The position numbers and the translations under genes were made by a program. Below, one piece after another: positions 19,762-54,459 of a DNA stretch of 64,000 nt; position 1 is the stretch's first letter; each line of letters opens with the position of its first letter. Source of the stretch: Bdellovibrio sp. SKB1291214 (GTDB lineage: Bacteria; Bdellovibrionota; Bdellovibrionia; Bdellovibrionales; Bdellovibrionaceae); assembly GCF_002209355.2 (NCBI RefSeq), contig NZ_CP106855.1:3410001-3474000 (forward strand). The letters are read 5' to 3'. The notes beneath the pieces are model-generated. The model made no database searches. It saw only the letters and a program-made list of their open reading frames with translations, and was not told the origin of the DNA.

Positions 19762-19834
19762 GAACCTTCCTTCCATGGTGGGTTCTTAGAGAGACAGCCG
19801 ACGTGCATGTCAGCCTTGGTAAAAGGATATGGTA

Positions 19835-37398: not shown

Positions 37399-37457
37399 TA
37401 ATTCTATGAAACATTTTGCCCATCTAGAACCTATTTGCCAATAGACCTTTACAAGGC

Positions 37458-37473
37458 TGGCATCGTATGTGCA
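37458..37473 (+). promoter_or_regulatory. Sigma-54-like (-24/-12) promoter before the flagellar cluster
   Basis: TGGCATCGTATGTGCA matches the sigma-54 consensus TGGCACGNNNNTTGCW at most fixed positions, with the essential GG and GC spaced 10 bases apart. Transcription would start near 37484, just before AAGGGG and the GTG start at 37506. It fits with sigma-54-type regulators in this window. A search for more copies is needed. Confidence 0.5.
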
Positions 37474-37505: not shown

Positions 37506-40292
37506 GTGAACAACTTGCGAAACGTAATTTTGGCAGGATGCCTTTGCTTTAGTCTAGTGGCTATTGCAGCGAATAGTAAAGTGAATGGCTTCATTAACTT
37601 CCAAGGCGATACTGTGCATTTGGAGTTACTGGGTCAGCAGAATTGGGATTACGACGTGAAGCGTTTGGACGTCAAAGGCCAGACTATCGTCCGTATGACT
37701 GTTCCTGCTCTTGATGAATCCACTGTGAAATCCCTGAGCACTTTTAAAAGTGATATGGTGACTAATGTAACTGTCGACGCTCAAGGCGCCGACGGTAAAT
37801 CTGTGATCTCCTTCACTTTAGCTGGAGAAAGTATTGATACTTTCGATTATCTGACAGATCAGCCTTCGCGGTTGATCATGGATTTTTATTTGAATCCTAG
37901 CATGGCAAAAGCTACAGCTAAAGAGCCTGCGAAAAAAGACGAAACCGCAAAGGTTGAAGAATCCCCTAAGACTGTAAAACCAGTAGCGAAAACAAAAACT
38001 GGAACTAATCGCAAGCCCGCGACATCGGATGCATTAGAAATAAAGAATGCAGGACCTACCGTTGCCCAAGCAGATCAAATTCAAGCGGGTATCTTTGATG
38101 GTGGCGATCCAAACTACGAACGCTTTTCTATCAAGCCTTACGATATTAAAGAAGAATCGATCATCCGTTCGAAGGATAACTACTATATTACTTTCCCAAT
38201 GCTGGAAACGCCTGTGACTCAATGGGAAAAGTTGAAGATCACTCCGACGATTTACGAAATTACTCCCAAATCCACAGAAGAAAACAAACAGGCACGTCTG
38301 TTGTTAACACTGTTCGAAAAGGAACGTTACGCCGTCTATTTGAAGACGCGTAATTGGTTCCAAGAAAAGTATCCGCAATCTGAATACAACGAAATCATCG
38401 ATTTCATGACGGGGGACGTAAATCTTGCTTTGTATAAACAAAGCGGAAAAATGGAATTTTTTGACGAGGCCATTCAAAAATATAGAGAAGCCATCGAAAA
38501 ATATCCAACCTCTCCGTTGTCTGAAAGAACGTCTTTAAAGGTTGGTTACCTGACTCTTGAGCGTGGTGACAACTTAGCGGCTCTTCGTCTATTCAAAGAA
38601 CATATCGAAAACAAAAACTTCGGCGGTAAAGATTCCATTTCTAAGGATTTGGCTCGTATGGGTATGGGCTTGGCTTTCATGCGCCTGAACAAATGGGACG
38701 ACGCCATTGCTCAGTATGACAGTGTTGAAAAAAATTCGACGAACCGTGATCTAAAAGTTGAAGCAGCTTACCGCAAAGGCGACGTATGGGTTCGTGCTAA
38801 GAACTATGCAAAGTCTGTTGATGAATACAAAAGTGCGTTAAAGAAATACCCAGAGGGTCAGAACTCCTATCCCAATGCCTTCTATAACCAAGCAGAATCA
38901 ATGTTTGGTTTGAAGCAGTATCCACAAAGTTTGGATATGTACCGTGAGTTCATTAAGAAATTCCCATCAAGTGATCATGCTCCTTATGCGATGACTCGGT
39001 TAGGAGAGTTGTTGGATATCTTGGGTGCAGATAAATCTCGCGTGATGGGTGCATATCTTGAGACTTATTTCCGTTACGGTGAAACTCCAAGTGCCGTTAT
39101 TGCTCGTTTGCGTCTGTTAAGTGCTCGTATGAAGGGCATGAAACCTAAAGAGACCGCTAACGCCGTTAAAGAAATCATGGAGCTTGCGAAAAAAGTCGAT
39201 CTTCCGAATATGGAACAATTCGCAACTGTGATGGTGGCTGACGGTTATTCTCAGCGTGGTGAGTTTGATAAATCTGTTAACTTGTTATCTAAGTACTATA
39301 AAGAACATCCAGGTTCTGTAGATGCTCCGCTATTGACCGGCAGAATTATCGCTAACATTAATGGAAAATTGGATGACCAAGTTGAGAAAGGCGACTTTAT
39401 CGGCGCTTTGAAAACACACAGTCAATACGCTGACAACTGGTTGAAAAACTCCAACCGTTTAGATACGAAATTCAACGTAGGTCGCGCCTTTGAAATGGCT
39501 GGAACTCCCGTGGAGTCCGAGCGTTATTATAAAGAAGTACTGAATCGTGTGTATGCTTTGCAAGGTACACCTGAAGCCAAAGAAATTGCAGTGAAAGAGG
39601 AAGTTCCATCTGTCGAAGAATTGAATCTTCGTCTGGCTGCGGTTTCCACGAATGAGCAAAAATATAATCAAGCTTACGAATATCTTAAGAACATCAAGAA
39701 TCCTGAAAAATTGGATGAAAATGACCAGATCGAACGTGTGGGTATTGCTGTGAAACTGCTTGAAAGACGTGGCGACACAGACTCTGCAATCCGTTATTTG
39801 GGCGAGCTGCTAAGAACTTGGAAAGGCCAGCCAGAACTGGTAGCTGAGCCTTACTTAAAATTAGCTGAGCTACAATTGAAGCAGAACAAAAAGGACGAAG
39901 CCCTTCAGTCTTTAAGCATGATCGACAAGCTGATGACAGATTCTAAAAAAGTTTCTCCGGTGGTTCATGCCAAAGCATTAGAAATGATGGGCAACGTCTA
40001 CATGGAGTCGAACCAGAAGGACAAGGCAATCAGCGCTTATAAAAATCTTTTGGAACAATACGAGGATACAAGACCTCTTTCTTCCATCAGATATAAGCTG
40101 GGACAAATTTATTTTAATCGCGGCGAAGTTCAAAAAGCAGCCGAGGTTTGGAACGAATTCAAAGGTCAAAAAAGTGGATTCTGGAAAAATCTTGCGCAAG
40201 AGCAGTTAAAGAACTCCGAGTGGCGAGACGGTTATAAAAAGTATATTCAAAGAATTCCGGCAATGGCCGCTGATAAGCAGGAAAGCAAGTAG
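37506..40292 (+). CDS. Periplasmic AMIN-like and TPR-repeat protein at the head of the flagellar cluster
   Basis: A 928-residue exported protein. Signal-like start LRNVILAGCLCFSLVAIAANS, then an AMIN-like beta domain (about 25-140), a Lys/Glu/Pro-rich linker, and more than ten TPR-type repeats (AIQKYREAIEKYPTSPLS, SVDEYKSALKKYPEGQNS and similar) up to the C-terminus. I choose GTG at 37506, preceded by AAGGGG; an ATG at 37467 is in frame but lies inside the promoter-like site. The protein is followed 12 bases later by the AAA+ regulator and flgB. It may scaffold flagellar assembly or link it to the cell wall; this is inference. Confidence 0.8.
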   Translation: MNNLRNVILAGCLCFSLVAIAANSKVNGFINFQGDTVHLELLGQQNWDYDVKRLDVKGQTIVRMTVPALDESTVKSLSTFKSDMVTNVTVDAQGADGKSVISFTLAGESIDTFDYLTDQPSRLIMDFYLNPSMAKATAKEPAKKDETAKVEESPKTVKPVAKTKTGTNRKPATSDALEIKNAGPTVAQADQIQAGIFDGGDPNYERFSIKPYDIKEESIIRSKDNYYITFPMLETPVTQWEKLKITPTIYEITPKSTEENKQARLLLTLFEKERYAVYLKTRNWFQEKYPQSEYNEIIDFMTGDVNLALYKQSGKMEFFDEAIQKYREAIEKYPTSPLSERTSLKVGYLTLERGDNLAALRLFKEHIENKNFGGKDSISKDLARMGMGLAFMRLNKWDDAIAQYDSVEKNSTNRDLKVEAAYRKGDVWVRAKNYAKSVDEYKSALKKYPEGQNSYPNAFYNQAESMFGLKQYPQSLDMYREFIKKFPSSDHAPYAMTRLGELLDILGADKSRVMGAYLETYFRYGETPSAVIARLRLLSARMKGMKPKETANAVKEIMELAKKVDLPNMEQFATVMVADGYSQRGEFDKSVNLLSKYYKEHPGSVDAPLLTGRIIANINGKLDDQVEKGDFIGALKTHSQYADNWLKNSNRLDTKFNVGRAFEMAGTPVESERYYKEVLNRVYALQGTPEAKEIAVKEEVPSVEELNLRLAAVSTNEQKYNQAYEYLKNIKNPEKLDENDQIERVGIAVKLLERRGDTDSAIRYLGELLRTWKGQPELVAEPYLKLAELQLKQNKKDEALQSLSMIDKLMTDSKKVSPVVHAKALEMMGNVYMESNQKDKAISAYKNLLEQYEDTRPLSSIRYKLGQIYFNRGEVQKAAEVWNEFKGQKSGFWKNLAQEQLKNSEWRDGYKKYIQRIPAMAADKQESK

Positions 40293-40304: not shown

Positions 40305-41147
40305 ATGTCGTATTTTGATTTTGATGCCTTGAACATCGAAGACAGAAAAATGAATGAAGCAAAGCAATTGGGTTTGCAGTTAGCTGCAACACAAGCGAGT
40401 TTGCTTGTCGTCGGTGAAGCGGGTGTAGGTAAAACAAGTTTTGCCCGTTATATCTACTCAAAAAGTCGTTCGGGAAAAATTCAAGTTCTTGAATGCAAAA
40501 ACGCTGGTGGCTTCAACTTTGATAAAGTTGATGGCGGCACCCTTTTGATTGAAGACTTAGATTGCGCATCTTCACATGTGCAGGCGGAGCTGATGAAGCT
40601 AGCCGAAAGAACGGATGGCACTCGTCCGCGTTTTATTTCTACATCCCGTCGTGATTTACGTGCCATGGTGAAACAAGAACAATTCAGGCAGGATCTGTTT
40701 TACAAAATTGCGGTCGTGCAGTTGGAAGTTCCTCGCCTTGAGGACCGTACTCACGATTTCTCGACGATCGCGAGTTTCATTTTAGAAGTAACTCAAATTA
40801 TGCACGGTCGTTCTGGGTTGCATTTTTCTGCTGATGCGTATGCTCGTTTAAGTGGTTGGAATTGGCCGGGGAATATTCGTGAGCTTGAAAATGTTATAGA
40901 GCGTGCGGTGGTTCTGACTAAAGGCCAGGTCATTGAAGTCGCTTCTATTCAATTTGAGTCTGTGCAGGATGAAACGGCATCAGATTTTGCGCCGGGAATG
41001 TCCCTTTCTGCGGTTGAAAAGCGTCTGATTCTTCAGACCCTGGAGTTGACGGCACAGAACCGCACCCGTGCGGCTCAAATGCTTGGAATCAGTATCAGAA
41101 CTTTAAGGAATAAACTTAACGAATACAGGGAAGAAGGTGTCGCGTGA
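40305..41147 (+). CDS. Sigma-54-activator-like AAA+ protein lacking the GAFTGA loop
   Basis: A 280-residue protein with Walker A GEAGVGKTSFARYI, Walker B GGTLLIEDLD, FRQDLFYKIAVVQLEVPRL, WPGNIRELENVIERAVVL, and a Fis-type helix-turn-helix (QNRTRAAQMLGISIRTLRN). The N-terminal receiver is absent. The stretch between Walker A and B is shortened by about 30 residues and has no ELFGH-GAFTGA region, the part that contacts sigma-54. It should therefore bind DNA without the normal activation step, or regulate another activator. It overlaps flgB by a GTGA junction, so it belongs to the flagellar operon. Confidence 0.85.
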   Translation: MSYFDFDALNIEDRKMNEAKQLGLQLAATQASLLVVGEAGVGKTSFARYIYSKSRSGKIQVLECKNAGGFNFDKVDGGTLLIEDLDCASSHVQAELMKLAERTDGTRPRFISTSRRDLRAMVKQEQFRQDLFYKIAVVQLEVPRLEDRTHDFSTIASFILEVTQIMHGRSGLHFSADAYARLSGWNWPGNIRELENVIERAVVLTKGQVIEVASIQFESVQDETASDFAPGMSLSAVEKRLILQTLELTAQNRTRAAQMLGISIRTLRNKLNEYREEGVA

Positions 41148-41557
41148 GTGGTGATATTTTCGATAAAACGTTAAACGGCCTCGCAACGTCAATGCGTATG
41201 AGGCAGCTTCGCAATAATATTACTTCTTCGAATATTGCGAATGCAGAGACTCCTGGTTATCACGCTAAAAAAATGGATTTCGAAGAGGCATTGTCTCGTT
41301 CGATGAACATGGATGGCATGAATGCCTTAAGTGCAACAAGTGGTGATCACTTTGCATTGGGTGGTGTTTCGGTGGCTAAGACTCGTCCTGATATTTATGA
41401 AAATCCAGAGGGCGCTGTTAACAATGACGGCAACACTGTGGATCTTGAGAAAGAAATGTCGGCGTTGTCAGAGAATGCCATCATGTACAAAACGGCTCTT
41501 CAATTGATTAATAAAAAAATGGCAGCGTTAAAGTACGCGGCTTCTGAAGGTCGATAG
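41144..41557 (+). CDS. flgB: Flagellar basal-body rod protein FlgB
   Basis: A 137-residue proximal rod protein. NITSSNIANAETPGYHAKKMDFE is the rod/hook N-terminal signature; the C-terminus has NTVDLEKEMSALSENAIMYK. It starts with GTG overlapping the upstream TGA. It heads the run of structural flagellar genes. Confidence 0.95.
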   Translation: MSGDIFDKTLNGLATSMRMRQLRNNITSSNIANAETPGYHAKKMDFEEALSRSMNMDGMNALSATSGDHFALGGVSVAKTRPDIYENPEGAVNNDGNTVDLEKEMSALSENAIMYKTALQLINKKMAALKYAASEGR

Positions 41558-41583: not shown

Positions 41584-42027
41584 ATGGCTGATTTTTTAAC
41601 TGGGATGAGAATTAGTAGCAGTGGTATGGCAGCGCAAAGAATGCGCATGAATACGATTGCGAGTAATATCGCAAATATCAATACCACCCAGACCCCTGAG
41701 GGCGGCCCGTACCGCAGGAAAGACGTCGTGTTCGAGTCTATGCCTGACGCTAAAAATTTCGGCGAAATCGTGACAGGCACAGACCCTATGGGGAATATGC
41801 AACGAGTCCAGGTGACGGATGTCGTCTCTGATCGCAAAGCTCCGCTAATGAAATATGAACCGGATCATCCTGATGCAAATCCAGAGGGTTACGTCGCATA
41901 TCCGAATATCAATCTGATGGAAGAAATGACCAATATGATACAATCGTCGCGTTCCTACGAGGCCAACGTATCGGCCATGCAAGCGTCAAAAGATATGGCT
42001 ATGAGTGCTTTGGAGATAGGAAGATAG
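41584..42027 (+). CDS. flgC: Flagellar basal-body rod protein FlgC
   Basis: A 147-residue rod protein. RMRMNTIASNIANINTTQTPEGG at the N-terminus and MIQSSRSYEANVSAMQASKDM at the C-terminus are the FlgC marks. GGGAG precedes the ATG by about six bases. Confidence 0.96.
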   Translation: MADFLTGMRISSSGMAAQRMRMNTIASNIANINTTQTPEGGPYRRKDVVFESMPDAKNFGEIVTGTDPMGNMQRVQVTDVVSDRKAPLMKYEPDHPDANPEGYVAYPNINLMEEMTNMIQSSRSYEANVSAMQASKDMAMSALEIGR

Positions 42028-42113: not shown

Positions 42114-42452
42114 ATGGAAGGGTTTACTGTATCAAATGCCAACAGATTCCTCGAGACAGGAAATCTGCGTGACTCAAAGTCACTGTCCATCTCGGGAGAG
42201 ACGACACCACTAAGTAACACATCAGAATCCGGTAAGAGCTTCGCTGACACCTTGAAAGATGCTGTTAGTTCCGTGAATGAGTTGCAAAAGTCTTCAGACA
42301 AATTTGCACAAAACATTGCTACAGGAAAAACAGACGATGTCGCTGGAGCGATGATTGCTGCAGAAAAAGCGGATATCGCTTTGCGCGTAATGGTTCAAGT
42401 GCGCAACAAGATCATTGATGCGTATCAAGAAGTCATGAAGATGCAAGTTTAG
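42114..42452 (+). CDS. fliE: Flagellar hook-basal body protein FliE
   Basis: A 112-residue protein whose C-terminal half matches FliE (SFADTLKDAVSSVNELQ, KADIALRVMVQVRNKIIDAYQEVMKM). It links the MS ring to the rod. AAGGAG is 10 bases upstream of the ATG. The 86 bases before it contain a TATAAT (42074-42079) that could be a -10 element of an internal promoter, but no good -35 is seen. Confidence 0.94.
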   Translation: MEGFTVSNANRFLETGNLRDSKSLSISGETTPLSNTSESGKSFADTLKDAVSSVNELQKSSDKFAQNIATGKTDDVAGAMIAAEKADIALRVMVQVRNKIIDAYQEVMKMQV

Positions 42453-42494
42453 TTTTTAGTATATAATTACCTAAAGCAAACAGAGTGATCGAGT

Positions 42495-42513
42495 GCTTCG
42501 GCGGAGCCGAAGC
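42495..42513 (+). other. GC-rich hairpin in the fliF leader
   Basis: GCTTCGGC (42495-42502), loop GGA, GCCGAAGC (42506-42513): a perfect 8-bp stem. It ends 10 bases before the CCGGAGGG Shine-Dalgarno of fliF. No T run follows, so it is not a terminator; it may tune translation or mRNA stability. Confidence 0.5.
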
Positions 42514-42534
42514 GAAAAGCCCCGGAGGGATTCT

Positions 42535-44187
42535 TTGAATAAAATTTTTGGTGGATTGGTTGTCCAGTTTCGTGAGTTCTTTAAAAATCTGGGTCCAACC
42601 AAAAGACTTTCAGTTGTTGCCGTAACTCTTATTGCGGTAGTGGCTCTATTGACGATGCTATTCATGGCTTCGGGCAAAGATTACGTTCCTCTATTCACGA
42701 ACATCCCAACCGAACAAGTTTCCTCTATCGTTGCTAAATTGAACGAAAAGAACATTCCGTTCCAATTGCGTGATGGTGGTAAAACAGTAGCGATTCCTAA
42801 AGAACTTCTGCATTCAACGCAAATGACGTTGATGGCTGAAATCGGTTCTCCAAAAATGGGTAACATCGGTCTTGAGCTTTTCGATAAGCAAGATTTTGGT
42901 GTGAACTCTTATGCTCAAAAAATCAATTACCAAAGAGCTTTGCAAGGTGAGTTGATGAGAGCAATCAACACTTTGACAGCGGTAAAGCAGTCTAAAGTTA
43001 TCTTGGCTCTTCCAAATAAAAAAACATTCCTTGAAGAGGGTGGTTCAGCTTCTGCGTCCGTTGTTGTTGAACTTCACTCTGGTAAAGAACTTACTGCGGA
43101 CCAAGTTCGTGGTATCCGTTACCTAGTTGCCAATGCTGTTGAAGGTATGGATGCAGATAAAGTCGCGGTTCTTGATGAACGCGGTAAAGTTTTGACTCGT
43201 ACTTCAGATGGCTCAACAGGTGGTTCTAACGAATTATTGGATCTGAAAGCAAAAGTTGAAAGAGATTTCGAAGATCGTATCGAAGACATTCTTTCGAAAG
43301 TTGTCGGTCACGCTAAAGTCGTAGCTAAAGTTGATGCGACTTTGAATCACCGTGTGATCTCTTCTGTTGAAGAACTTGTTGATCCAGATAAAACAGCGAT
43401 TCGTTCTCAACAATCTGAAGAGGAATCTTTGGATGGTGCTCGTACGAACCCCGCTGGGGTTCCGGGTTCTCGTTCCAACATTCCAGGTGCTGAAGACAGC
43501 TCGGGCCAAGTTGGTTTCAAACAAGACGTTAAAAAAGAATTGAAGACAATTAATTATGAAGTTCCGAAAACTGTGCGCAACATCCGCGAAACTGCGGGTA
43601 ACCTAGAGCGCTTAAGTATCGCAGTAGTTGTTGACGGTGTGGCCGTTACAACTAAAAAAGACGACGGTACGACAGAGACCAAGTGGCAGCCCCGTTCGGC
43701 TGAAGAAGTTAAAAAGTACGAAGACCTGATCAAGGGTGCAGTTGGTTTCAATGCGGCTCGCGGTGACTCTGTTAAAGTTGAAACGATCCAGTTCCAACCA
43801 GAAGATTTCTCCGAAGCGGAAAAAATCCTGACGACGCTTGAGCGTAAAAAATTGATCCACGCTTTGTTCAAATGGGCTTTGCTGGGTTTCTCCTTGGCTC
43901 TGTTCTTCTTCATCGTGGTTCGTCCATTCATGCAATGGATCACAGACAGCTTCCAAGACTCTGTTGAGGAAATGCTTCCACGTACTATCGAAGAACTTGA
44001 AGAATTGCAATCGGTGGATAATACGCTTCCGGGTATGTCGACGGCTCTTCCTGTATTGCAGGAATCTATTGACCCTGAGAAAGCTGAATCTGAATTGTTG
44101 AAAGATCGTATTATGGCCACTATGGGTCGTGATGAAGAAAAAGCAGCCAATGCTTTCGGCATGTGGTTGGTTAGGAAGGATTCTTAA
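42535..44187 (+). CDS. fliF: Flagellar MS-ring protein FliF
   Basis: Forms the membrane ring that carries the rod, export gate and FliG. I start at TTG 42535 because GGAGGG lies about six bases upstream; a GTG at 42493 lies before a hairpin. The 550-residue protein has an N-terminal helix (LSVVAVTLIAVVALLTMLFMAS), PLFTNIPTEQVSSIVAKL, a second helix near residue 460 (FKWALLGFSLALFFFIVV), and a C-terminal FliG-binding tail (RDEEKAANAFGMWL). Its TAA overlaps the fliG ATG. Confidence 0.95.
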   Translation: MNKIFGGLVVQFREFFKNLGPTKRLSVVAVTLIAVVALLTMLFMASGKDYVPLFTNIPTEQVSSIVAKLNEKNIPFQLRDGGKTVAIPKELLHSTQMTLMAEIGSPKMGNIGLELFDKQDFGVNSYAQKINYQRALQGELMRAINTLTAVKQSKVILALPNKKTFLEEGGSASASVVVELHSGKELTADQVRGIRYLVANAVEGMDADKVAVLDERGKVLTRTSDGSTGGSNELLDLKAKVERDFEDRIEDILSKVVGHAKVVAKVDATLNHRVISSVEELVDPDKTAIRSQQSEEESLDGARTNPAGVPGSRSNIPGAEDSSGQVGFKQDVKKELKTINYEVPKTVRNIRETAGNLERLSIAVVVDGVAVTTKKDDGTTETKWQPRSAEEVKKYEDLIKGAVGFNAARGDSVKVETIQFQPEDFSEAEKILTTLERKKLIHALFKWALLGFSLALFFFIVVRPFMQWITDSFQDSVEEMLPRTIEELEELQSVDNTLPGMSTALPVLQESIDPEKAESELLKDRIMATMGRDEEKAANAFGMWLVRKDS

Positions 44188-45221
44188 TGAAACTGCAAAA
44201 ATCTGACCATATTGAGTACGAACAACTCAAAGGTTTCGACAAAGCGGCGATCCTTATCAATTACCTTGGTAAGGATGCAGTTAAGGTTCTTTTGCGTCGT
44301 ATGGACGACGCGGATATCCGCAAACTTATCAATCAAATGAGTAAGTTGCGTGTCGTTCCAGTCCACGTAACAAAACGTGTGCTTGAAGAGTTCTATGAAA
44401 TGATTTCTGAAACTGAAGATTACATTTTCTCCGAATCGATCTCTGCGAAGGAAACTATCGTAGACGCGTTGGGTGAAGAACGTGCCAGAGGTATCCTGGG
44501 TGGTTTGAATATCACAACAGGTGGCTCTCGTTCATTGGAATCTTTGGAGATGGTGGATGCAAAATCTTTGGCGACGTTCTTAGTGAACGAACATCCACAG
44601 ACTGTGGCAGTTATTTTGGCTCACCTAGAGCCTGAGAAAAAAGGAGAGGTTTTGAAACGTCTTCCAGAAGCACTTCAAGCTGAAGTTGTTCTGCGTATGG
44701 CGAACCTTGAACACGTTGACCCAGAGTTGATCGGTGAGATCGACCGCGTGTTAAAACACCAATTGTCCAATACAGCAACGGTCGAACAAGCAGCCCTTGG
44801 CGGCGTTCAACCGGTGGCAGAAATGCTCAACGTTATGGACAAAAACACGGAAACAGCGATCATGTCTCGTTTGGAAGAAAAAGATCCTCTTCTTGCCGAA
44901 GAGATCCGCAAACTTATGTTTGTCTTCGACGATATCAGCAAAATCGACGACCGTGGTATTCAAGCGCTTCTCAAAGAAGTACCGAACGACAAACTTCTTT
45001 TGGCTCTCAAAACGTCCAGCGAAGAGATTCGTACGAAAATCTTCAAAAATATCTCCGCTCGTGCGGCAGAGATGTTACGCGAAGACCTTGGGAACATGGG
45101 ACCTTCTCGTCTATCAGACGTCGAAGGCGCTCAACAAGAGATCGTCAATGCTGCTCGTCGCCTAGAGGCGGAAGGCAAGATTATGATCGCAAGAGGTGGT
45201 TCAGAAGATGCAATGGTCTAA
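44187..45221 (+). CDS. fliG: Flagellar motor switch protein FliG
   Basis: A 344-residue switch and torque protein. FDKAAILINYLG at the N-terminus, NEHPQTVAVILAHLEPEKKGEVLKRLP around the middle domain, and a charged C-terminal domain (VFDDISKIDDRGIQALLKEV) that interacts with the stator. ATG overlaps the fliF stop. Confidence 0.97.
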   Translation: MKLQKSDHIEYEQLKGFDKAAILINYLGKDAVKVLLRRMDDADIRKLINQMSKLRVVPVHVTKRVLEEFYEMISETEDYIFSESISAKETIVDALGEERARGILGGLNITTGGSRSLESLEMVDAKSLATFLVNEHPQTVAVILAHLEPEKKGEVLKRLPEALQAEVVLRMANLEHVDPELIGEIDRVLKHQLSNTATVEQAALGGVQPVAEMLNVMDKNTETAIMSRLEEKDPLLAEEIRKLMFVFDDISKIDDRGIQALLKEVPNDKLLLALKTSSEEIRTKIFKNISARAAEMLREDLGNMGPSRLSDVEGAQQEIVNAARRLEAEGKIMIARGGSEDAMV

Positions 45222-46014
45222 TAGTTCTAAGCAAGGCCCGGGTGCGCATACAAAGGCTGTCCTTAAAAAGGAAGTTGCTGAGAAAACTGTATTGGAGTTC
45301 GTGCCAGCTAAAATTGAACTGGGAACTCCATCGCAGGCCATGCAGTATTTGACTGAAAAAAAACGTGGTTCTGATTTCCGCATGAATGATGCGATCCGTG
45401 TTCAAACGGGCGTGGATCAAGTCGAGCGTGTAGATGAAGAAGAAAAAATCGAAGCTGCGGCCTTAGATAAACTTAAGGAAATTCAAGAGCAAGCCTACCA
45501 AGAAGCCTATAATTTGGGTCTGGAAGAAGGTCGTAAAGAGGCTTTCGAAAAAGTTTCTGCAGAGATTATAGCGCGTATGCAAGGGCTAGATGAGCTTTTG
45601 TTGGGTGTAAAAGAATTAAAAAAAGATCTGACTTCTTTCAATGAAAATCACTTGGTGACCTTAGCCTATAAAATGGCGGGTCGTTTAGCTAAGGCTGAGC
45701 TAGCAACAAATAACGATGCTATGATTCAGATATTGCGTGATGCCGTTGCATTGGCGCAGGACGAAGAACAAATCACTGTTCATGTTTCTCAAGAGCAATT
45801 CGATTTCTTAGAAGAGCTTAAAAAAGAAACGGGCCGTGATCTTGAATTCACGAAAAAGATCCGCTTTGAACCAAGTGCTGAAATTATCGCTGGTGGTTGC
45901 ATCGTGGAAACAAATTATGGCGAAGTCGATGCTCGCGTTGAACAACGTCTTGAGCAGTTGTGGACTGTGCTTTCTGAAAACATGCCTAAAGTGAAAGATA
46001 AGGTTGCCAGTTAA
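45208..46014 (+). CDS. fliH: Flagellar assembly protein FliH
   Basis: A 268-residue regulator of the FliI ATPase. The first 100 residues are variable; EEEKIEAAALDKLKEIQEQAY forms a coiled coil leading into GLEEGRKEAFEK, and the C-terminal part has IRFEPSAEIIAGGCIVETNYGEVDARVEQRLEQL, the FliH/YscL signature. It overlaps fliG by 14 bases (the frame permits a GTG at 45196) and shares TAATG with fliI. Confidence 0.92.
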   Translation: MQWSNSSKQGPGAHTKAVLKKEVAEKTVLEFVPAKIELGTPSQAMQYLTEKKRGSDFRMNDAIRVQTGVDQVERVDEEEKIEAAALDKLKEIQEQAYQEAYNLGLEEGRKEAFEKVSAEIIARMQGLDELLLGVKELKKDLTSFNENHLVTLAYKMAGRLAKAELATNNDAMIQILRDAVALAQDEEQITVHVSQEQFDFLEELKKETGRDLEFTKKIRFEPSAEIIAGGCIVETNYGEVDARVEQRLEQLWTVLSENMPKVKDKVAS

Positions 46015-47342
46015 TGAGCGATTTCTCCCTGGATCTGGATAAGTATTCTGACTTGGTTAACTCCATCCACTTGACCCGCGATAGCGGCAAGGTGACAGAG
46101 GTTAACGGAATGCTGATCAAGGGATATCTTCCCGGCGCAAGCGTGGGAAGTGTGGTGCAAATCATTCCGAATGGATTGGAGCGCTCGTTCCTTGCTGAAG
46201 TGGTGGGCTTTAAAGACAAGCATGTCTTGATGATGGCCCTCAACGATATGAGAGGCGTAGCACTCGGTTCTAAGATTATTCTTTCCCGTCAAATTGCCAC
46301 TGTTCGCGCCGGCGATGAGCTATTAGGTCGCGTGGTGGATGGTCTAGGTCGTCCTTTGGATAACAAAGGCGAAATAGAAAATTTCCGTGAAGTTCCTTTA
46401 TACAGCGAGATTCGTAACCCCCTTGAAAGACAGCCAATTCGCCAACCTTTGGATTTGGGCATTCGCGCTATCAATGGCGCATTAACCGCGGGCCTTGGTC
46501 AGCGTGTCGCTATTATGGCCGGTTCTGGTGTGGGTAAGTCCGTTTTGTTGGGAATGATGGCTCGTAATACCAGTGCCGACGTCAACGTCATCGCTATGAT
46601 CGGTGAACGTGGTCGTGAGGTGCGTGAGTTTATCGAGCATGATTTGGGACCTGAAGGTATGGCTCGCTCGGTTGTGGTTTGTGTGACGAGCGACCAATCT
46701 CCTCTTCTGCGTATGCGTGGTGCTTATGTGGCAACGGCAATGGCAGAGTACTTCAGTGCTCAAGGTAAAAATGTTTTATTGATGATGGATTCGGTGACTC
46801 GTTTTGCAATGGCTCAACGTGAAATCGGTTTGTCAACGGGGGAGCCACCTTCTCAAAAAGGTTATACTCCGTCCGTATTTGCAACTCTTCCGAAACTGCT
46901 GGAACGCGCGGGTAATTTTGAAGGCGAAGGCAGTATTACTGGTTTCTATACCACACTCGTAGAGGGTGATGACATGAATGACCCGATCGGGGACTCTGTT
47001 CGTTCCATCGTTGATGGACATATCGTGCTTTCACGAGCTTTAGCGGCTCGTGGTCACTATCCTGCGATCGATATCATGCAAAGTGCATCGCGTGTTATGA
47101 AAGCTGTGGCTTCATCCGAACACGTTCGACTTGCACAGAAATTGAAAGAGACATTGGCCATTTATAAAGACGCCGAGGACTTGATTAACATCGGAGCTTA
47201 TAAGCCAGGCTCTAATCCAAAGATCGATAAGGCAGTCAAGGTCATCGATCAAGTGAATGACTTCTTAAAGCAAAGAGTCGAAGACCCAACGAACTTTAAC
47301 AACACGGTTCGTATGCTTCAGCAGATCCTGATCAACGCATAA
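46014..47342 (+). CDS. fliI: Flagellum-specific export ATPase FliI
   Basis: A 442-residue F1-ATPase-like enzyme. Walker A GSGVGKSVLLGMMA, Walker B NVLLMMDSVTRFAMAQRE, and GYTPSVFATLPKLLERAG are visible. It powers flagellar export with FliH and FliJ. ATG overlaps the fliH stop. Confidence 0.97.
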   Translation: MSDFSLDLDKYSDLVNSIHLTRDSGKVTEVNGMLIKGYLPGASVGSVVQIIPNGLERSFLAEVVGFKDKHVLMMALNDMRGVALGSKIILSRQIATVRAGDELLGRVVDGLGRPLDNKGEIENFREVPLYSEIRNPLERQPIRQPLDLGIRAINGALTAGLGQRVAIMAGSGVGKSVLLGMMARNTSADVNVIAMIGERGREVREFIEHDLGPEGMARSVVVCVTSDQSPLLRMRGAYVATAMAEYFSAQGKNVLLMMDSVTRFAMAQREIGLSTGEPPSQKGYTPSVFATLPKLLERAGNFEGEGSITGFYTTLVEGDDMNDPIGDSVRSIVDGHIVLSRALAARGHYPAIDIMQSASRVMKAVASSEHVRLAQKLKETLAIYKDAEDLINIGAYKPGSNPKIDKAVKVIDQVNDFLKQRVEDPTNFNNTVRMLQQILINA

Positions 47343-47355
47343 TCGGGGGTGAGTG

Positions 47356-47805
47356 ATGAAATTCAAATTCCCCCTTCAGAAAGTTCTAGAACACCGTAAG
47401 GTCGTTGAAAACATCGCCCAGAAAGACTTTCAGGATGCGGTAGCTGTTCTTAATGAATATCAGACTAAGTTAGATAAAATGCGTCAAGATATACTAGACG
47501 CTCAAGCCCGCGCTGGCAGCCTGCTTCAAGCAGGGGGGGCTCAAGGTCCAGCGCTTGTACAGATTCATGAATTCCTAAAAGGTCATAAAATTCGCATCCA
47601 GCAACAAGAGCAAAATATTCACGAGATCGAGAAAATAGTCGAGGCCAAGAGAGAAATTTTGCGACAAGCCGCTCTAGACTATAAAATTATGGAGAAGACG
47701 CGGGAGAATCAGTTCGAGGAATATAAAGCCGAACGCAAGATTCAGGATCAGAAAGAAATGGACGAACAGGCCATTCTTCGCTTCAAAGGAATGAAGGAAT
47801 CTTAA
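47356..47805 (+). CDS. fliJ: Flagellar export chaperone FliJ
   Basis: A 149-residue coiled-coil protein (KFPLQKVLEHRKVVENIAQK start, AERKIQDQKEMDEQA end). Its place between fliI and a MotE-like gene and the FliJ-type coiled coil support the name. ATG at 47356 follows GGGGGTGA; a GTG three bases earlier is also possible. Confidence 0.88.
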   Translation: MKFKFPLQKVLEHRKVVENIAQKDFQDAVAVLNEYQTKLDKMRQDILDAQARAGSLLQAGGAQGPALVQIHEFLKGHKIRIQQQEQNIHEIEKIVEAKREILRQAALDYKIMEKTRENQFEEYKAERKIQDQKEMDEQAILRFKGMKES

Positions 47806-47808
47806 TTG

Positions 47809-48639
47809 ATGAAAACTGGATACGATCAGTTCTTTAAGAATGCACGCAAAGTCGCAGATGAAAATGGTGGAGCAGTTAAATTCCAAAAGAATCCTGCGGC
47901 CGCTCGCTTGCATCTTGATCTATCCTCTGAAGACGTTGAACAACAAATTCGTCGTCGCATGAAAATGTCAGCTCCCAAAAAGAAGAAAAAGAAATCTGGC
48001 GTTCATTGGAAAATGGCGGGATTTTCATTCATCGGTTTACTGTTGGCAGTCGTGGGTTTTCAAAATCATGAACAGATTGATGAAATCCTAAAAAGAGTGG
48101 AAATTACTCTGACCGGTGAAGCCGTTGCGGAAACAGCTCCAGCAAAACCTGCGGCAAAAGCGGAAGACAAAAAAGCAGAAGCAGCACCGACAGAAAAAGA
48201 AGTCGACACCAGAGCTGCCGCTCTTTCTTCGGATGAAATTGATCATCTGACCAAATTGAATGATAGAAAAAAAGAATTGGATGCACGCGAAGAAGAACTC
48301 AATCGCCAAGAGGCAGAGTTGCAAGCTCAAAAGATCGAGCTTGATAAGCGTTTAAAAGATCTTGAAGACATGCGTGGAAAAATCTCTAGCATGCTTGAAG
48401 ACCGCGTCAAGGCTGACGACCAGAAGGTCGATACCTTGGTACAGATGTACACCAATATGAAGGCACCACAGGCGGCCAAAGTCTTTGAGACGATGGACGA
48501 GGATTTGGTGGTCGAGATACTTGGTCGTATGAAAAAGAAAAATGCTGCTGATATCATGAATTTATTAAAACCGGAAAAAGCTCAGACTATATCTGAGAAG
48601 TATGCCGGTTATAAACGTGCTCCAGCATCTGAAAAATAA
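47809..48639 (+). CDS. MotE-like membrane protein
   Basis: A 276-residue protein: a polar N-terminus, six lysines (PKKKKKKSG), one membrane helix (MAGFSFIGLLLAVVGF, about 67-84), an Ala/Glu/Lys-rich linker, a long coiled coil (REEELNRQEAELQAQKIELDKR) and a C-terminal helical domain (MKAPQAAKVFETMDEDLVVEILGRMKKKNAADIMNLL) of the MgtE_N/FliG-C-like type found in MotE. MotE-like proteins help MotC or stator assembly in some bacteria; the role here is inferred. ATG at 47809; the TTG at 47806 has a better-spaced AAGGA. Confidence 0.82.
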   Translation: MKTGYDQFFKNARKVADENGGAVKFQKNPAAARLHLDLSSEDVEQQIRRRMKMSAPKKKKKKSGVHWKMAGFSFIGLLLAVVGFQNHEQIDEILKRVEITLTGEAVAETAPAKPAAKAEDKKAEAAPTEKEVDTRAAALSSDEIDHLTKLNDRKKELDAREEELNRQEAELQAQKIELDKRLKDLEDMRGKISSMLEDRVKADDQKVDTLVQMYTNMKAPQAAKVFETMDEDLVVEILGRMKKKNAADIMNLLKPEKAQTISEKYAGYKRAPASEK

Positions 48640-48672
48640 ATAAAAGCAATTCTCTAAGGAAGGAGGATCGTT

Positions 48673-50514
48673 TTGTTAAACATAGTCGGCCCCCCAATGG
48701 TGGGTGCGACCGAATTGAAGTCTCAGACTGACAAGCTTCAGGCAAAAGATTTCAAGGGTTCCGGTGCGACGGATTCTAACTTCAACAAAGCTCTTCAGGA
48801 TAAAATCAACCTGAGAAGCCCGAAAGAAGCGAAAGAGTCGCCAAAGCAAGAAGCAAGAGCGAAAGACTCGAATGACTCGAAAGAGACACGAGACGAAAAA
48901 GCTCCCGCGAAGGATGCAAAACCAGAACGCAAGGTCAGCACGAACGATGGGAAAGAAAAGCGGGCGGCGAACAGACAGCAGGCAATCAAAGAATTCATGG
49001 ACTCATTCGAGAGTGAATTTGAAATCCCTCCCACACGACTTGTGGAAGCGATGGCCGAACTGGATGACAGCCAGCTCAAACAATCCCCAGAAGTAACAGC
49101 GAATGCTGTGATTGACCAATTGAACTTGGACGATGACCAGGCAGAAAAAGCCGCGGCCATGTATGCAGGTTTGTTGGCGCAATTGCAGCAGATGCCACAA
49201 CAGCAACAACCAAAGGCAATGACAGAAATGTCAGTGGGCGCTGGTATGTCTGCGCAAAGCATGCAAATGCGTGTGGCAGCCGCTCAAGATAAGCAGACTC
49301 AATTGGGTGCTGCTGCTGAAAATGTAAATAAGAAATTCTGGATGAAGCAGGAACCGGCAGCGAAGATGTCGACAATGCCGGACCTGAATGGCGATCTTGC
49401 ATCACGTATGATGATGGATGATTCCTCTCTTCAAGAGGCTCCGCCCGTTGAAATGCCGGCGCAGCAGGCTCCAGAATCAATGAATCAACAAAGTTTGTTG
49501 GACAAGTTGCCTCCTCATTTGCAAGGTCAAATGAAGGAAACGATGTCCCCGGCATTGTTGGCGGCTTTAGCTGCGAAGCAAGCGGCAGCAGCTGCCGAAA
49601 AGGCAGAAGGTGTAGCTGCTGAAGATTCTTCGTCTGATTTGACGAATGAGTTCACGAAAGCTCTTGAGGCTCCGCAAATGGATAAACCTCAACAAGCAGA
49701 TATGATGAACAAAGCGGTGGCGCCAAAAACGTCTCCGGAGTCTTTCTTCCAACAGCAAGGTCAGGGACAGTCTGCGATGCAAGATTCAGCCAATGAATAC
49801 ATGCAACAGGGAATGGCCCACGGCAAAGAAGCTGCGAAAGAAAAACTGACGGCTAAAGCGGCCGATTTTAAAGCAGAGATGACGGGACTTGAGGGTTTGC
49901 AAGCGCAACCACTAAAGGGTGAAGCATTGAAGTTTGACCCGGCAATGGCGGCGATGGCTCCGAAACCAGCTCCGGCAACAGAGGCGCAAAACGAAGCCAA
50001 TGTGAAGCAACTGATGAATCAGGCGCAGTACTTGATTAAGCAGGGTGGCGGTGAAGTGAAAGTTCAAATGACCCCGGAGGGCATGGGAACAATTCATCTG
50101 AAAGTCATGCTTCAGGACGGAAAAGTAAATCTTCAAATGCAAGCGGACTCACAAGAGGCGAAGAAGTCGATTGAGTCTAGTCTAGTTGATCTGAAGAACA
50201 GTCTTGCTGCTCACAAATTGTCTGTAGAAAATGTTAAAGTGGATGTTGTGAACAACACGTCTGCGGATACTGCGACACAGAACCAAAATAATACGAACGG
50301 CCAAGATCAAAGAAATCAGGCACGTCAGTTCTGGAATAACTTCAACGACAGCTTTGGTAATCAAGGTCGTCGGGAATCCTTTACTGAAATGCAGGGCGTT
50401 CGTGGTTACGGCGGTAAACGTCGCGATCCATTGCAACCTATTGACACGGCTTCTGTTAAAGCAGCACCGCGCGCAATAGAGGGCAAAGGCAGCGGATTGA
50501 ATTTAGTGGCTTAA
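48673..50514 (+). CDS. fliK: Flagellar hook-length control protein FliK
   Basis: A 613-residue protein. The N-terminal three-quarters are low-complexity (Ala, Gln, Glu, Lys; QQMPQQQQPKAM) as expected of a ruler domain. The C-terminal domain has QYLIKQGGGEVKVQMTPEGMGTIHLKV, the FliK hook-length signature. It starts at TTG, with a perfect AGGAGG six bases upstream. Confidence 0.92.
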   Translation: MLNIVGPPMVGATELKSQTDKLQAKDFKGSGATDSNFNKALQDKINLRSPKEAKESPKQEARAKDSNDSKETRDEKAPAKDAKPERKVSTNDGKEKRAANRQQAIKEFMDSFESEFEIPPTRLVEAMAELDDSQLKQSPEVTANAVIDQLNLDDDQAEKAAAMYAGLLAQLQQMPQQQQPKAMTEMSVGAGMSAQSMQMRVAAAQDKQTQLGAAAENVNKKFWMKQEPAAKMSTMPDLNGDLASRMMMDDSSLQEAPPVEMPAQQAPESMNQQSLLDKLPPHLQGQMKETMSPALLAALAAKQAAAAAEKAEGVAAEDSSSDLTNEFTKALEAPQMDKPQQADMMNKAVAPKTSPESFFQQQGQGQSAMQDSANEYMQQGMAHGKEAAKEKLTAKAADFKAEMTGLEGLQAQPLKGEALKFDPAMAAMAPKPAPATEAQNEANVKQLMNQAQYLIKQGGGEVKVQMTPEGMGTIHLKVMLQDGKVNLQMQADSQEAKKSIESSLVDLKNSLAAHKLSVENVKVDVVNNTSADTATQNQNNTNGQDQRNQARQFWNNFNDSFGNQGRRESFTEMQGVRGYGGKRRDPLQPIDTASVKAAPRAIEGKGSGLNLVA

Positions 50515-50558
50515 GAAAGTGAGAGTTCAAGCAGCTCTCAAGGAAAAAGGGGATTTGA

Positions 50559-51569
50559 ATGACAATGGTTAATGCGAAATTAGGAGTGAATGCTTTCGGT
50601 ACGACACAAGACAAGCCGACGAGCACTGTTGGTACTCCCAGCAACCTGAGTGTTCAAGATAAGAAAAAAGTTGGTGAAGAAGATCTTGGCGCAGTGGCCA
50701 ATAAACTTGCTGATCCAAATTGGACTGATCCCACTAAAAAAGTTCGCACAACTGGCAATCCCAATTTGGATAAAGATGCTTTCTTCAAATTGATGCTTGC
50801 CCAAATGAAAAATCAAGATCCAACGAATCCGATGAAGTCCCATGAGATGGCTGCTCAATTGGCGAATTTTTCGTCACTCGAGCAAATGCAGAACATGAAC
50901 AGAACACTTGAAGAGTTGAAGAATGCACAAAAGCCTTCTGAAAACTTCCAAGCGTTGAATTTGATCGGCAAAGCTGTTGCGGGTGATTCTTCGAAAGTAG
51001 TGCGCGGAGCAAATGACAAAGATCACGATTTCAAATTCTCTCTGCCAATGGCAGCAGACGAAGTCACAGTGAAAGTGCGCGATGCGGATGGCGCCGTTGT
51101 TAGAACATACAATTTGAAAGGTCTGAAACAAGGCGAGAACAAACTCACTTGGAATGGTGAAGACGAAAAAGGTATGAAGGCAGCAATGGGTGAATACCAG
51201 TTCATCGCAGAAGCAAAAACTGCTGACGGGAAAAAATTGGGAATCAAAACAGATTTCGACGGAGTTATCACTGGGGTAAGTTACTCTGCTGATGGCCCGG
51301 TTCTAAATGTTGGAAACCAGGCGATTCGCTTTAGAGACGTGAAAAAGATCACAGACCCTCGTCTTATGAGAAACGACCAGAATGTAAATGACGTCACCAA
51401 CCTAGACTTGAAAAAGGATGATGCCACAGGACAAACTAAGAAAGAGCCGAATGTAGTACAACAAAGTTCTACTACTGAGCAAGCTCCTGTAGCAAAATCG
51501 AAGATCATGGATACGGTGGGTTTATCTCGCGACATGATGGATAAGATCGCGAAGGAGATGGCGAAGTAA
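50559..51569 (+). CDS. flgD: Flagellar hook assembly protein FlgD
   Basis: A 336-residue hook cap. NPTNPM-type segment (KNQDPTNPMKSHEMAAQLANFSSLEQMQN split by the linker) is the FlgD signature, followed by a FlgD Ig-like domain (TWNGEDEKGMKAAMGEYQF). The C-terminal 60 residues are extra and helical. AAGGAAAAAGGGG lies upstream. Confidence 0.94.
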   Translation: MTMVNAKLGVNAFGTTQDKPTSTVGTPSNLSVQDKKKVGEEDLGAVANKLADPNWTDPTKKVRTTGNPNLDKDAFFKLMLAQMKNQDPTNPMKSHEMAAQLANFSSLEQMQNMNRTLEELKNAQKPSENFQALNLIGKAVAGDSSKVVRGANDKDHDFKFSLPMAADEVTVKVRDADGAVVRTYNLKGLKQGENKLTWNGEDEKGMKAAMGEYQFIAEAKTADGKKLGIKTDFDGVITGVSYSADGPVLNVGNQAIRFRDVKKITDPRLMRNDQNVNDVTNLDLKKDDATGQTKKEPNVVQQSSTTEQAPVAKSKIMDTVGLSRDMMDKIAKEMAK

Positions 51570-51570
51570 A

Positions 51571-52008
51571 ATGGTAGACTTAAAGAAGATACAGACATTC
51601 GAACAACTCGTTCCGAAGCCGCAACCCAAGGTTCAACCTGAGGTTGGCGCAGGCACGGGTCCTTCCTTCAAGGAGACTCTTGATAAGCTCGGTGGGCCGA
51701 TCGCGACCCCTGCAGCAGTTCCGGTGGCTCCACAAGGCTTAACAAAGCCCGCTGAAGGAGTGAAGTTCTCGAATCATGCGATCGAGCGAATGGGTACTCG
51801 CGGGATTAGTTATAGTCCTGATGATATCAGCAAGCTGAATGATGCGGTGACGAGAGCAGCGGCGAAAGGTTCCAAGGATTCATTGATTTTAATGAATGAC
51901 TCGGCACTGATCGTAAGCGTGAAGAATAAGACTGTTGTGACAGTGATGGACAAGACCGCATTGAAAGAAAATGTGTTCACGAACATCGATTCAACAGTAG
52001 TTATTTAA
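51571..52008 (+). CDS. Flagellar operon protein, TIGR02530 family
   Basis: A 145-residue protein with the family core FSNHAIERMGTRGISYSPDD, KDSLILMNDSALIVSVKNKT and KENVFTNIDSTVVI. These proteins sit between flgD and flgE in many bacteria; the exact job is not known. The ATG starts two bases after the flgD stop. Confidence 0.85.
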   Translation: MVDLKKIQTFEQLVPKPQPKVQPEVGAGTGPSFKETLDKLGGPIATPAAVPVAPQGLTKPAEGVKFSNHAIERMGTRGISYSPDDISKLNDAVTRAAAKGSKDSLILMNDSALIVSVKNKTVVTVMDKTALKENVFTNIDSTVVI

Positions 52009-52025
52009 CCGCAAAACGCACTGAA

Positions 52026-52180
52026 GCTGTCCCGAAGAGACAGATAAAGTGCAAACACCAAGAACATAGAATGTGTTCGAGGTAGCAGGTTGGTAAATCA
52101 TCCTGCGGATGAATAAAAACTAAATATTAGGGCTGGTCCTCGTAGAGGAGGCCCTCCAAACGGTGGTTCTCGACTAGAAC
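52026..52180 (+). promoter_or_regulatory. Structured leader of flgE with tandem hairpins
   Basis: In the 193 bases before flgE: CTGTC/GACAG (52026-52042), GCAGG/CCTGC (52085-52106), GGGC..CCTC GTA GAGG..GCCC (52130-52154) and a GGTGGTTCT/AGAACTGCC hairpin (52162-52183). No T run follows any of them. They may be regulatory or mRNA-stabilising. No clear promoter was found. Confidence 0.4.
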
Positions 52181-52201
52181 TGCCAACGACATGGAGGTCA
52201 C

Positions 52202-53485
52202 ATGGGTATTCTTTCTTCATTGTACACGGGTGTGTCTGGTATGACTGCACAGGGCGAAGCCCTTGGCGTTATCGGTGACAATATCGCGAATGCAAACACT
52301 ATCGGTTTCAAAGCGTCTCGCGCTGAATTCCAAGATATCATTTCTAAAAGCTTAAAAGGTGTTCTTGGTGGTAACCAAATCGGTCGTGGTGTGAAGATCG
52401 GTGCTGTGAATCCAATTCTTACTCAAGGTAACGTAGACGCAACAGAAAAAGTAACTGACCTTGCTATCTCTGGTGACGGTTACTTCAAAGTTAAAGGTTC
52501 TGATGGCGAGTCTTACACTCGTGATGGATCTTTCCACTTTGACCGCGAAGGTTACTTGGTAACTAACGACAATCAAAAAGTTCAAGGTTTCGGTACTGAC
52601 GAAAAAGGTAACATCTTGAACAAAATGACTGATATCAAATTCCCACGCGCTTTGATCCCAGCTAAAGCGACTAAAGAAATCAAAATGGATTTGAACTTGG
52701 ATTCTCGTATGGAACCAACTAAAAAGTTCGATCCGAAAGATCCATACTCCACTTCTCATTACTCTACAGGCGTTGAGATGTACGATTCTCAAGGTAATAA
52801 ACACTTGTTGTCATTGTTCTTCAATAAGACAGCTGACAGACAATGGGAATACAAAGGCTTGGTAGACGGTAAAGAAGTTACTGGTGGCGAAGAAGGCAAA
52901 ATGTCTGAAGTAGTTGCTGGTAAACTGATGTTCACAGTTGATGGTAAACTTGATGAACAAACAGTGACATCTTCGAACTTCAACTTCAAAGGTGGCGCTC
53001 TTCAAGGTCAAGAAATCAAAATGAACTTCGGTGATGCTATCAAAGCTGGTGGTAAAGGTTTGGACGGTACTAAACAGTACGGTAAAAACTCTGACCTTAT
53101 CTCTTGGCACCAAGATGGCGCGGCTGCTGGTACAATCAACAGCTTGTCATTCAATGACGAAGGTATCTTGACGGCAGTTTACTCAAACGGTCAGGCTCAA
53201 GATTTGGCGCAAATCGCCCTTGCTAAGTTCGAGAATCCAGAAGCTCTATTCAAAGTTGGTAACAACCGTTTGAAAGAATCTAGAGACTCTGGTGGCGCAT
53301 CTATCGGCGGTCCGGGCACAGCTGGTCGCGGTAAGTTGTTCGCTAAATCTCTTGAGAGATCAACAGTAGACTTGGCCACTGAATTCGTAAACATGATCCA
53401 AAATCAACGTGGTTTCCAAGCGAATGCTAAGACAATCACTACGACGGACGAACTTCTTAACGAAGTGATCCAGTTGAAACGTTAA
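52202..53485 (+). CDS. flgE: Flagellar hook protein FlgE
   Basis: A 427-residue hook protein with the N-terminal rod/hook motif VIGDNIANANTIGFKASRAEF, TQGNVDATEKVTDLAISGDG, and the C-terminal AKSLERSTVDLATEFVNMI and GFQANAKTITTTDELLNE. Base usage is strongly biased towards frequent codons, as for a highly expressed protein. GGAGG lies four to five bases before the ATG. A strong terminator follows. Confidence 0.97.
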   Translation: MGILSSLYTGVSGMTAQGEALGVIGDNIANANTIGFKASRAEFQDIISKSLKGVLGGNQIGRGVKIGAVNPILTQGNVDATEKVTDLAISGDGYFKVKGSDGESYTRDGSFHFDREGYLVTNDNQKVQGFGTDEKGNILNKMTDIKFPRALIPAKATKEIKMDLNLDSRMEPTKKFDPKDPYSTSHYSTGVEMYDSQGNKHLLSLFFNKTADRQWEYKGLVDGKEVTGGEEGKMSEVVAGKLMFTVDGKLDEQTVTSSNFNFKGGALQGQEIKMNFGDAIKAGGKGLDGTKQYGKNSDLISWHQDGAAAGTINSLSFNDEGILTAVYSNGQAQDLAQIALAKFENPEALFKVGNNRLKESRDSGGASIGGPGTAGRGKLFAKSLERSTVDLATEFVNMIQNQRGFQANAKTITTTDELLNEVIQLKR

Positions 53486-53784: not shown

Positions 53785-54459
53785 ATGAGATGCTTAGTAG
53801 TTGAAGACGACAACGAGATCGCAACGATTGTAAAGCAAGGCTTGGGAGAGCTGGAAGGTGAAGTCGAAGTTGAATCAAACGGTAGACGTGCCTACGAAAG
53901 AGCTCTAACAAATCATTACGACATCATCGTCCTAGATTTGATGCTTCCAGAAATGGATGGTTACACGTTCGCCAAATCTTTGCGTGAAAAAGAAATCAAC
54001 ACGCCAATCCTTATCTTGAGTGCATTGCGCGAACTTGATGACCGTCTTAAAGGTTTGAGCATGGGTGGCGATGACTACCTAACAAAACCATTCGCTATGG
54101 CAGAACTGCAAATCCGCGTTAAAAACCTTTTGAAACGTGCTCAGAAAGCTTCTGAAGTTACTCAATTGGTATTCCAAGATTTGAAATTGAACCGCTTGAA
54201 CCGTGACGTTGTACGTGCGGGCCGCAAGCTTGATCTTCAAGAGCGTGAATTCGTTCTTTTAGATTTATTCATGAGCAATCCAAACAAGATCATCGGAAAA
54301 CAAACGATCCTTAAGGAAGTTTGGAATTATGATTTCGATCCACAAACAAACGTGGTAGACGTATTGGTATGCCGCTTAAGAAACAAATTGGAAAAAGACT
54401 TCCCTACAAGACTTATCTATACTGTCAGAGGTGTAGGTTATGTCCTTAAAGGGTCTTAA
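53785..54459 (+). CDS. OmpR-family response regulator
   Basis: A 224-residue regulator: receiver with VVEDDNE, phosphoacceptor Asp in VLDLMLPEMDG and Lys in LTKPF; then a winged helix (EREFVLLDLFMSNPN, KEVWNYDFDPQTNVVDVLV, RLIYTVRGVGYVLK). GAGGGG lies nine bases before the ATG. Its partner kinase overlaps it by 20 bases. Sits between hook and membrane-protein genes; target unknown. Confidence 0.93.
   Translation: MRCLVVEDDNEIATIVKQGLGELEGEVEVESNGRRAYERALTNHYDIIVLDLMLPEMDGYTFAKSLREKEINTPILILSALRELDDRLKGLSMGGDDYLTKPFAMAELQIRVKNLLKRAQKASEVTQLVFQDLKLNRLNRDVVRAGRKLDLQEREFVLLDLFMSNPNKIIGKQTILKEVWNYDFDPQTNVVDVLVCRLRNKLEKDFPTRLIYTVRGVGYVLKGS

Follow-up and report, generated by a model that had tools for sequence, protein, structure and literature searches.

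A FlbD-like protein without the sigma-54 contact loops in a flagellar operon of Bdellovibrio, a possible feedback modulator

Second in a flagellar operon (TPR gene, regulator, flgB, flgC, fliE through flgE) of Bdellovibrio sp. SKB1291214 stands a gene for a relative of the sigma-54 activators (bEBPs) that has lost the loops by which such proteins engage sigma-54. The operon lies in the 64,000-nucleotide stretch of DNA that was analysed (below, the window), and its features are listed in Table 1. The reading that we prefer, with a probability of about 0.45, is that a FlbD-like sigma-54 activator has here become a modulator that binds DNA and acts by feedback, probably as a repressor, on its own operon; we infer both the repression and the site at which it would act.

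Table 1. Features of the operon, its regulator and the candidate activator (positions in the window)
Feature	Position	Strand	Remarks
Enhancer-like element TGTCAT-N4-TTGTCAGGCCTGACAA	37373..37398	+	some 85 bp before the -24 box
Promoter-proximal element CATTTTGCCC-N10-TATTTGCC	37412..37439	+	nearly confined to loci with the loop-less gene
Predicted sigma-54 promoter of the operon TGGCATCGTATGTGCA	37458..37473	+	conserved upstream of the TPR gene
Exported TPR protein, first gene of the operon	37506..40292	+	ORF from 37467; GTG start at 37506 by promoter position and conservation
Loop-less FlbD-like bEBP relative, 280 aa	40305..41147	+	degenerate AAA+, lid, Fis-type HTH (ORF calling, Pfam)
Walker A GEAGVGKT, residues 37-44	40413..40436	+	kept (alignment); GKT here, GKE in loop-bearing orthologues
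L1 (GAFTGA) deletion junction, residues 64-79	40494..40541	+	23 residues shorter than GAFTGA-bearing orthologues
Walker B region GGTLLIEDLD, residues 77-86	40533..40562	+	DE changed to ED (alignment)
L2 deletion junction, residues 97-110	40593..40634	+	10 residues shorter
Fis-type HTH NRTRAAQMLGISIRTLRNKLNEY, residues 230-275	40992..41129	+	near-invariant across the order
flgB	41144..41557	+	overlaps the regulator stop codon by 4 bases; Pfam
flgC	41584..42027	+	Pfam
fliE, fliF, fliG, fliH, fliI, fliJ, fliK, flgD, flgE	42114..53485	+	fliF, fliG and fliH by reading, others by Pfam
Intact REC-AAA+-HTH activator with GAFTGA, FleQ-like HTH	18349..19776	-	candidate activator of the operon
Histidine kinase upstream of this activator	19877..21733	-

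Domains, loop deletions and ATPase motifs

Pfam matches in the regulator were Sigma54_activ_2/Sigma54_activat, AAA_lid_14 and HTH_8, which is the architecture of a bEBP, a Sigma54_activat-type AAA+ domain with lid and HTH; the HTH_8 match bears out the Fis-type DNA-binding part that an earlier note had ascribed to the protein. A receiver domain was found neither by Pfam nor in the AF2 model, and there is no space for one N-terminal of the AAA+ domain. The model, built from 35 sequences (window plus relatives), has a mean pLDDT of 88.6. The solved structures nearest to it are AAA+ domains of sigma-54 activators, that of FlrC (6luf) being the top match (Z 23.1, rmsd 2.0 A, 212 of 247 residues aligned), and for the HTH alone the top solved matches are Fis proteins. 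Among NCBIfam models the protein matches FlbD (NF050807) best, at 188 bits and far under the cut-off of 750, and a search with its LGISIRTLR-type HTH placed alphaproteobacterial relatives at the top of the list.

The bEBP loops that engage sigma-54 are L1, which carries GAFTGA, and L2. GAFTGA is not present anywhere in the regulator. In the alignment its L1 region (C64-T79) has 14 residues, against an invariant 37 in the loop-bearing syntenic orthologues, and its L2 region (L97-F110) has 12 against an invariant 22. The loss of about 30 residues including GAFTGA that the earlier note described is therefore real, but it consists of two deletions (23 residues in L1 and 10 in L2, 33 in total) and not of one. 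Since both are genuine and family-wide, they support the view that the protein would be unable to remodel the polymerase in the standard way.

Walker A and B and the sensor had also been thought to be retained, which proved correct for Walker A but neither for Walker B, which reads IED in place of the usual LDE, nor for the sensor I Asn, which is substituted. Among the loop-less orthologues Walker A is kept in nearly all as GxxGxGK[TS] and Walker B is lost, its DE having become ED, EN or EG. The switch Asn is Glu in the window protein and Asp or Glu among these orthologues. At the second arginine finger the protein and its genus have Lys, and the first is retained in 30 of 32 sequences. The residue set for hydrolysis in bEBPs (Walker B DE, switch Asn, two arginine fingers) is thus incomplete in this protein, and with Walker B, the switch residue and the second arginine finger altered, ATP hydrolysis of the usual type is unlikely to occur, judging from the motifs. 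Nucleotide binding is possible.

Conservation, erosion and loss of the regulator

In 22 of the 23 other genomes of the genus that were searched, the gene was found at the same locus, with 70-94% identity, the loop missing and the reading frame open; the remaining one is a draft that yielded no flgC either. No loop-bearing orthologue was seen in a survey of 66 genomes of the Bdellovibrio family, and family orthologues were aligned in two sets (32, then 18 more). Outside the family but within the order, the gene at the syntenic place mostly has GAFTGA or GSFTGA, in the gene order TPR gene - bEBP - flgB - flgC. The earlier note had proposed to check conservation in relatives, and had held that a relative with GAFTGA at this locus would indicate an error here. 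Such relatives do exist, but only in other families, and the deletion is common to the 22 genus genomes and to the family orthologues found outside the genus, so the objection does not apply; a sequencing or assembly error in this genome was rejected as scarcely conceivable.

Relaxation of the motif was also seen outside the family. One locus of another family of the order (L047) has GAFVGA. Its sister in the tree, the regulator of genome G045 in family f2 (L054/L081), has eroded independently, with ANGF-GN in the GAFTGA region and LIKD for Walker B; its L2 loop and its length are retained.

Median pairwise dN/dS in the genus was 0.078 for the whole protein, 0.083 for the AAA+ domain and 0.028 for the HTH (41 to 152 usable pairs, with synonymous sites near saturation). 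Judged from these ratios, the gene is under purifying selection and is no pseudogene within the genus. Synonymous differences are nearly as many in the HTH as elsewhere (pS 0.62 vs 0.70), and its conservation is therefore mainly at the protein level. Between genera, mean identity of the AAA+ domain is 26% among loop-less regulators vs 63% among GAFTGA-bearing ones. The corresponding HTH values are 70% and 75%, with 66% between the two groups. Purifying selection on the AAA+ domain in genus g1 suggests that it does something there beyond what a plain HTH would do.

Elsewhere in the family the AAA+ domain has eroded further. Genus g3 has lost the Walker B segment and the arginine-finger region, and two family genomes have only 143-155 residues left, a lid remnant and an HTH that still reads LGISIRTLRNK. 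Erosion down to this remnant points to DNA binding as the part kept longest by selection. Between species of genus g3 the regulator ranges from about 260 to 143 residues (loci L270-L276, L337-L341, L347 and L351), a series that is usable material for studies of stepwise domain loss.

In eight family genomes the regulator is missing and the TPR gene is directly followed by flgB. A tree of TPR protein, FlgB and FlgC places the family in one clade (SH-aLRT 100), in which these eight genomes sit at about five places, corresponding to about five losses. The operon stays in all of them, and in most its sigma-54 promoter stays too. Repeated loss of the gene with the operon, and mostly the promoter, kept argues against a required activator and favours a modulator.

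It may tentatively be proposed that this one family holds living steps from a sigma-54 AAA+ activator to a Fis-like DNA-binding regulator at a sigma-54 promoter. The series would run from a ring ATPase with GAFTGA through a loop-less, hydrolysis-dead AAA+ protein and a protein without Walker B to an HTH alone and finally to loss, the promoter and enhancer being mostly kept by a second activator.

The operon, its control region and a candidate activator

FlgB of B. bacteriovorus HD100 is Bd3407 (PMC12546842), and by position the HD100 orthologue of the regulator gene is probably Bd3408. In the open-access literature we came upon no Bdellovibrio paper that deals with this gene. Synteny of the TPR protein with flgB extends over the whole order, beyond that of the regulator, and the protein is possibly a periplasmic part of the flagellar motor such as PflA. 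An OmpR-type response regulator and histidine kinase pair lies immediately after flgE (53785-55852).

Upstream of the TPR gene, TGGCA[CT] with a -12 TGTGCA was present in 22 of 22 genus regions read, the window included. With a matrix written from the published consensus and not trained on this order, such a sigma-54 site has the top score in almost every orthologous locus of 10-20 kb in the order, whether the regulator is loop-less, loop-bearing or absent. The enhancer-like element (consensus TGTCA-N5-TTGTC-R-N3-5-YGACAA) is spaced alike across most of the order, and nowhere else in the genome does its palindrome (TTGTCAGGCCTGACAA in the window) occur together with a sigma-54 site. As for other flagellar sigma-54 promoters, none of the 20 exact TGGCACNNNNNNTGCW sites in the genome precedes a gene readable as flagellar. 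One genomic sigma-54 site before an ExbB/TolQ-like gene (C1:2805334-2805349) has TTGTCTCTCAGTGACAA upstream, which resembles the flagellar enhancer-like element. The palindrome was rejected as a private operator of the regulator, because the element persists in four of the eight family genomes from which the gene is missing.

The promoter-proximal element (pattern TTTTTKCCC-N12-TATTTGCC), between the enhancer-like element and the promoter, was found at 23 of the 32 family loci that carry the gene (the other nine have no clear copy), at none of the eight without it, and at none of the loop-bearing loci. It was spotted by eye, and among phylogenetically independent pairs its link with the gene is concordant in three to four and discordant in none (p 0.125-0.25, not significant), so that the association is suggestive only; the element is a candidate for the regulator's own site. 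In the search for second copies only the operon site recurred at an orthologous place, a weak negative given that the pattern was one base off in spacing.

A loop-less protein would not be able to open the sigma-54 promoter of the operon, and another bEBP must then do so. The genome contains rpoN and, besides the regulator, ten bEBPs in which the motif reads GAFTGA or GSFTGA; in one more it reads GAMPGV, and this otherwise complete receiver-AAA+-HTH protein is encoded outside the window (C1:3612567-3613064). The best candidate is plausibly the activator at 18349-19776, which the earlier note had rightly seen as intact in GAFTGA but had ended at 19761. It gave reciprocal best hits in three of three family genomes tested, two of them without the loop-less gene; seven other bEBPs are also conserved in these genomes. 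The best solved match of its HTH is FleQ (E 1.3e-4). The FleQ box is GTCAAT/ATTGAC (PMC10723142), and it has GTCA in common with the half-sites of the enhancer-like element, which is a resemblance only. The paralogue with the HTH closest to that of the regulator (genome position 3596883, 368 aa) was weakened as the needed activator, as it gave no reciprocal best hit in genome G033, which keeps the promoter.

Feedback modulation, its alternatives and related systems

In the mechanism that we favour, the ancestor would have been a FlbD-like bEBP without a receiver, of the kind that other families still have at this locus, GAFTGA included. The ancestor of the Bdellovibrio family would have lost L1, L2 and the catalytic Walker B, and with them normal ATP hydrolysis and remodelling of the sigma-54 polymerase. 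What was retained would be DNA binding through the Fis-type HTH; in its own genus the protein would probably also bind nucleotide and keep an AAA+ fold that can multimerise. The operon would be read from its sigma-54 promoter with the enhancer-like element, activated by a second intact bEBP, best that at 18349-19776. The loop-less protein would most likely bind the control region, at the proximal element, the enhancer or both, and limit activation, as product feedback by a FlbD locked in a repressor-only state. Caulobacter FlbD represses fliF via ftr sites and activates later flagellar genes through sigma-54 (PMC3930126, PMC3096577). A FlbD-like protein without its engine would keep only the repressing function, and its own operon contains fliF; hence our preference for feedback limitation. 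Competition with the activator, or repression at flagellar promoters, fits an HTH that is kept and an AAA+ engine that is lost.

The main rival, which we consider unlikely though deserving of attention, is a positive accessory factor that binds between enhancer and promoter and bends DNA like IHF or Fis, or that forms mixed rings together with the intact activator and directs these to the operon. Bending would suit the Fis proteins among the best solved matches of the HTH, the position of the proximal element roughly whole helical turns from -24, and the fact that a positive role of this kind would leave the same traces as a feedback repressor. Mixed bEBP rings are known from FleQ/FleT (PMC11999139), and the retained first arginine finger would be consistent with them, but hydrolysis-dead, loop-less subunits are expected to poison rings, and members without the AAA+ core could not join them. 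The repeated loss of the gene from an operon that persists argues against a positive role of either kind.

Slightly less probable is that the protein mainly regulates other promoters, of sigma-70 or sigma-28 type. Known GAFTGA-less bEBPs such as HupR, TyrR and VpsR, and NtrC of Caulobacter and Rhodobacter, act at sigma-70 promoters (PMC3162934, PMC10274813), and FliA is behind most attack-phase promoters of Bdellovibrio (PMC3627812). Against this, weak searches of the genome revealed no second conserved proximal or enhancer-like site, and gene and cis-element go together in a single operon throughout the family. A functionless, decaying remnant retained by its operon position and translational coupling to flgB, as the AAA+ erosion, the repeated loss and the overlap with flgB might suggest, is improbable in view of a genus dN/dS of 0.08 for the whole protein and an HTH almost invariant across the order.

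Feedback modulation by a former FlbD-like activator can be compared with several known systems. The protein resembles FlbD in its LGISIRTLR-type HTH, its setting among flagellar genes and the repression of fliF of which FlbD is capable, but it lacks the receiver and GAFTGA, its ATPase is altered, and it is not FlbD itself. Functional GAFTGA-less bEBPs include HupR, TyrR, DhaR and VpsR (PMC3162934) and NtrC in Caulobacter and Rhodobacter (PMC10274813). The regulator is like these proteins, which have dual or repressor roles, in combining a bEBP fold and a conserved, retained HTH with the absence of the sigma-54 contact motif; unlike in them, L2 and Walker B are changed as well, the sigma-54 promoter of the operon is kept, and some family relatives lose the AAA+ core altogether. 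With FlrC, FleQ and FlrA it shares flagellar control, and the fold of its AAA+ domain is nearest to FlrC; unlike them it is no usual sigma-54 activator and has a different HTH. In FleQ/FleT of Cereibacter (Rhodobacter) sphaeroides an incomplete bEBP likewise modifies a complete one in flagellar control (PMC11999139). FleT is without a DNA-binding domain, and the Bdellovibrio protein is the reverse, with DNA binding kept and the activator loop lost. We regard as new that a flagellar, FlbD-like bEBP is GAFTGA-less and has lost L2 and Walker B along with L1, that the sigma-54 promoter has persisted, and that the protein erodes by degrees to an HTH-only form.

Bacterial enhancer-binding relatives without GAFTGA have been known singly, and here the origin, the loop-bearing orthologues, the intermediates and the losses can be compared at one locus. 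The survival of a regulator after the loss of its activating engine thereby becomes testable. How predatory Bdellovibrio changes from a feeding cell into a swimming attacker is understood only in part, and the regulator is likely to mark a point at which production of its flagellum is controlled.
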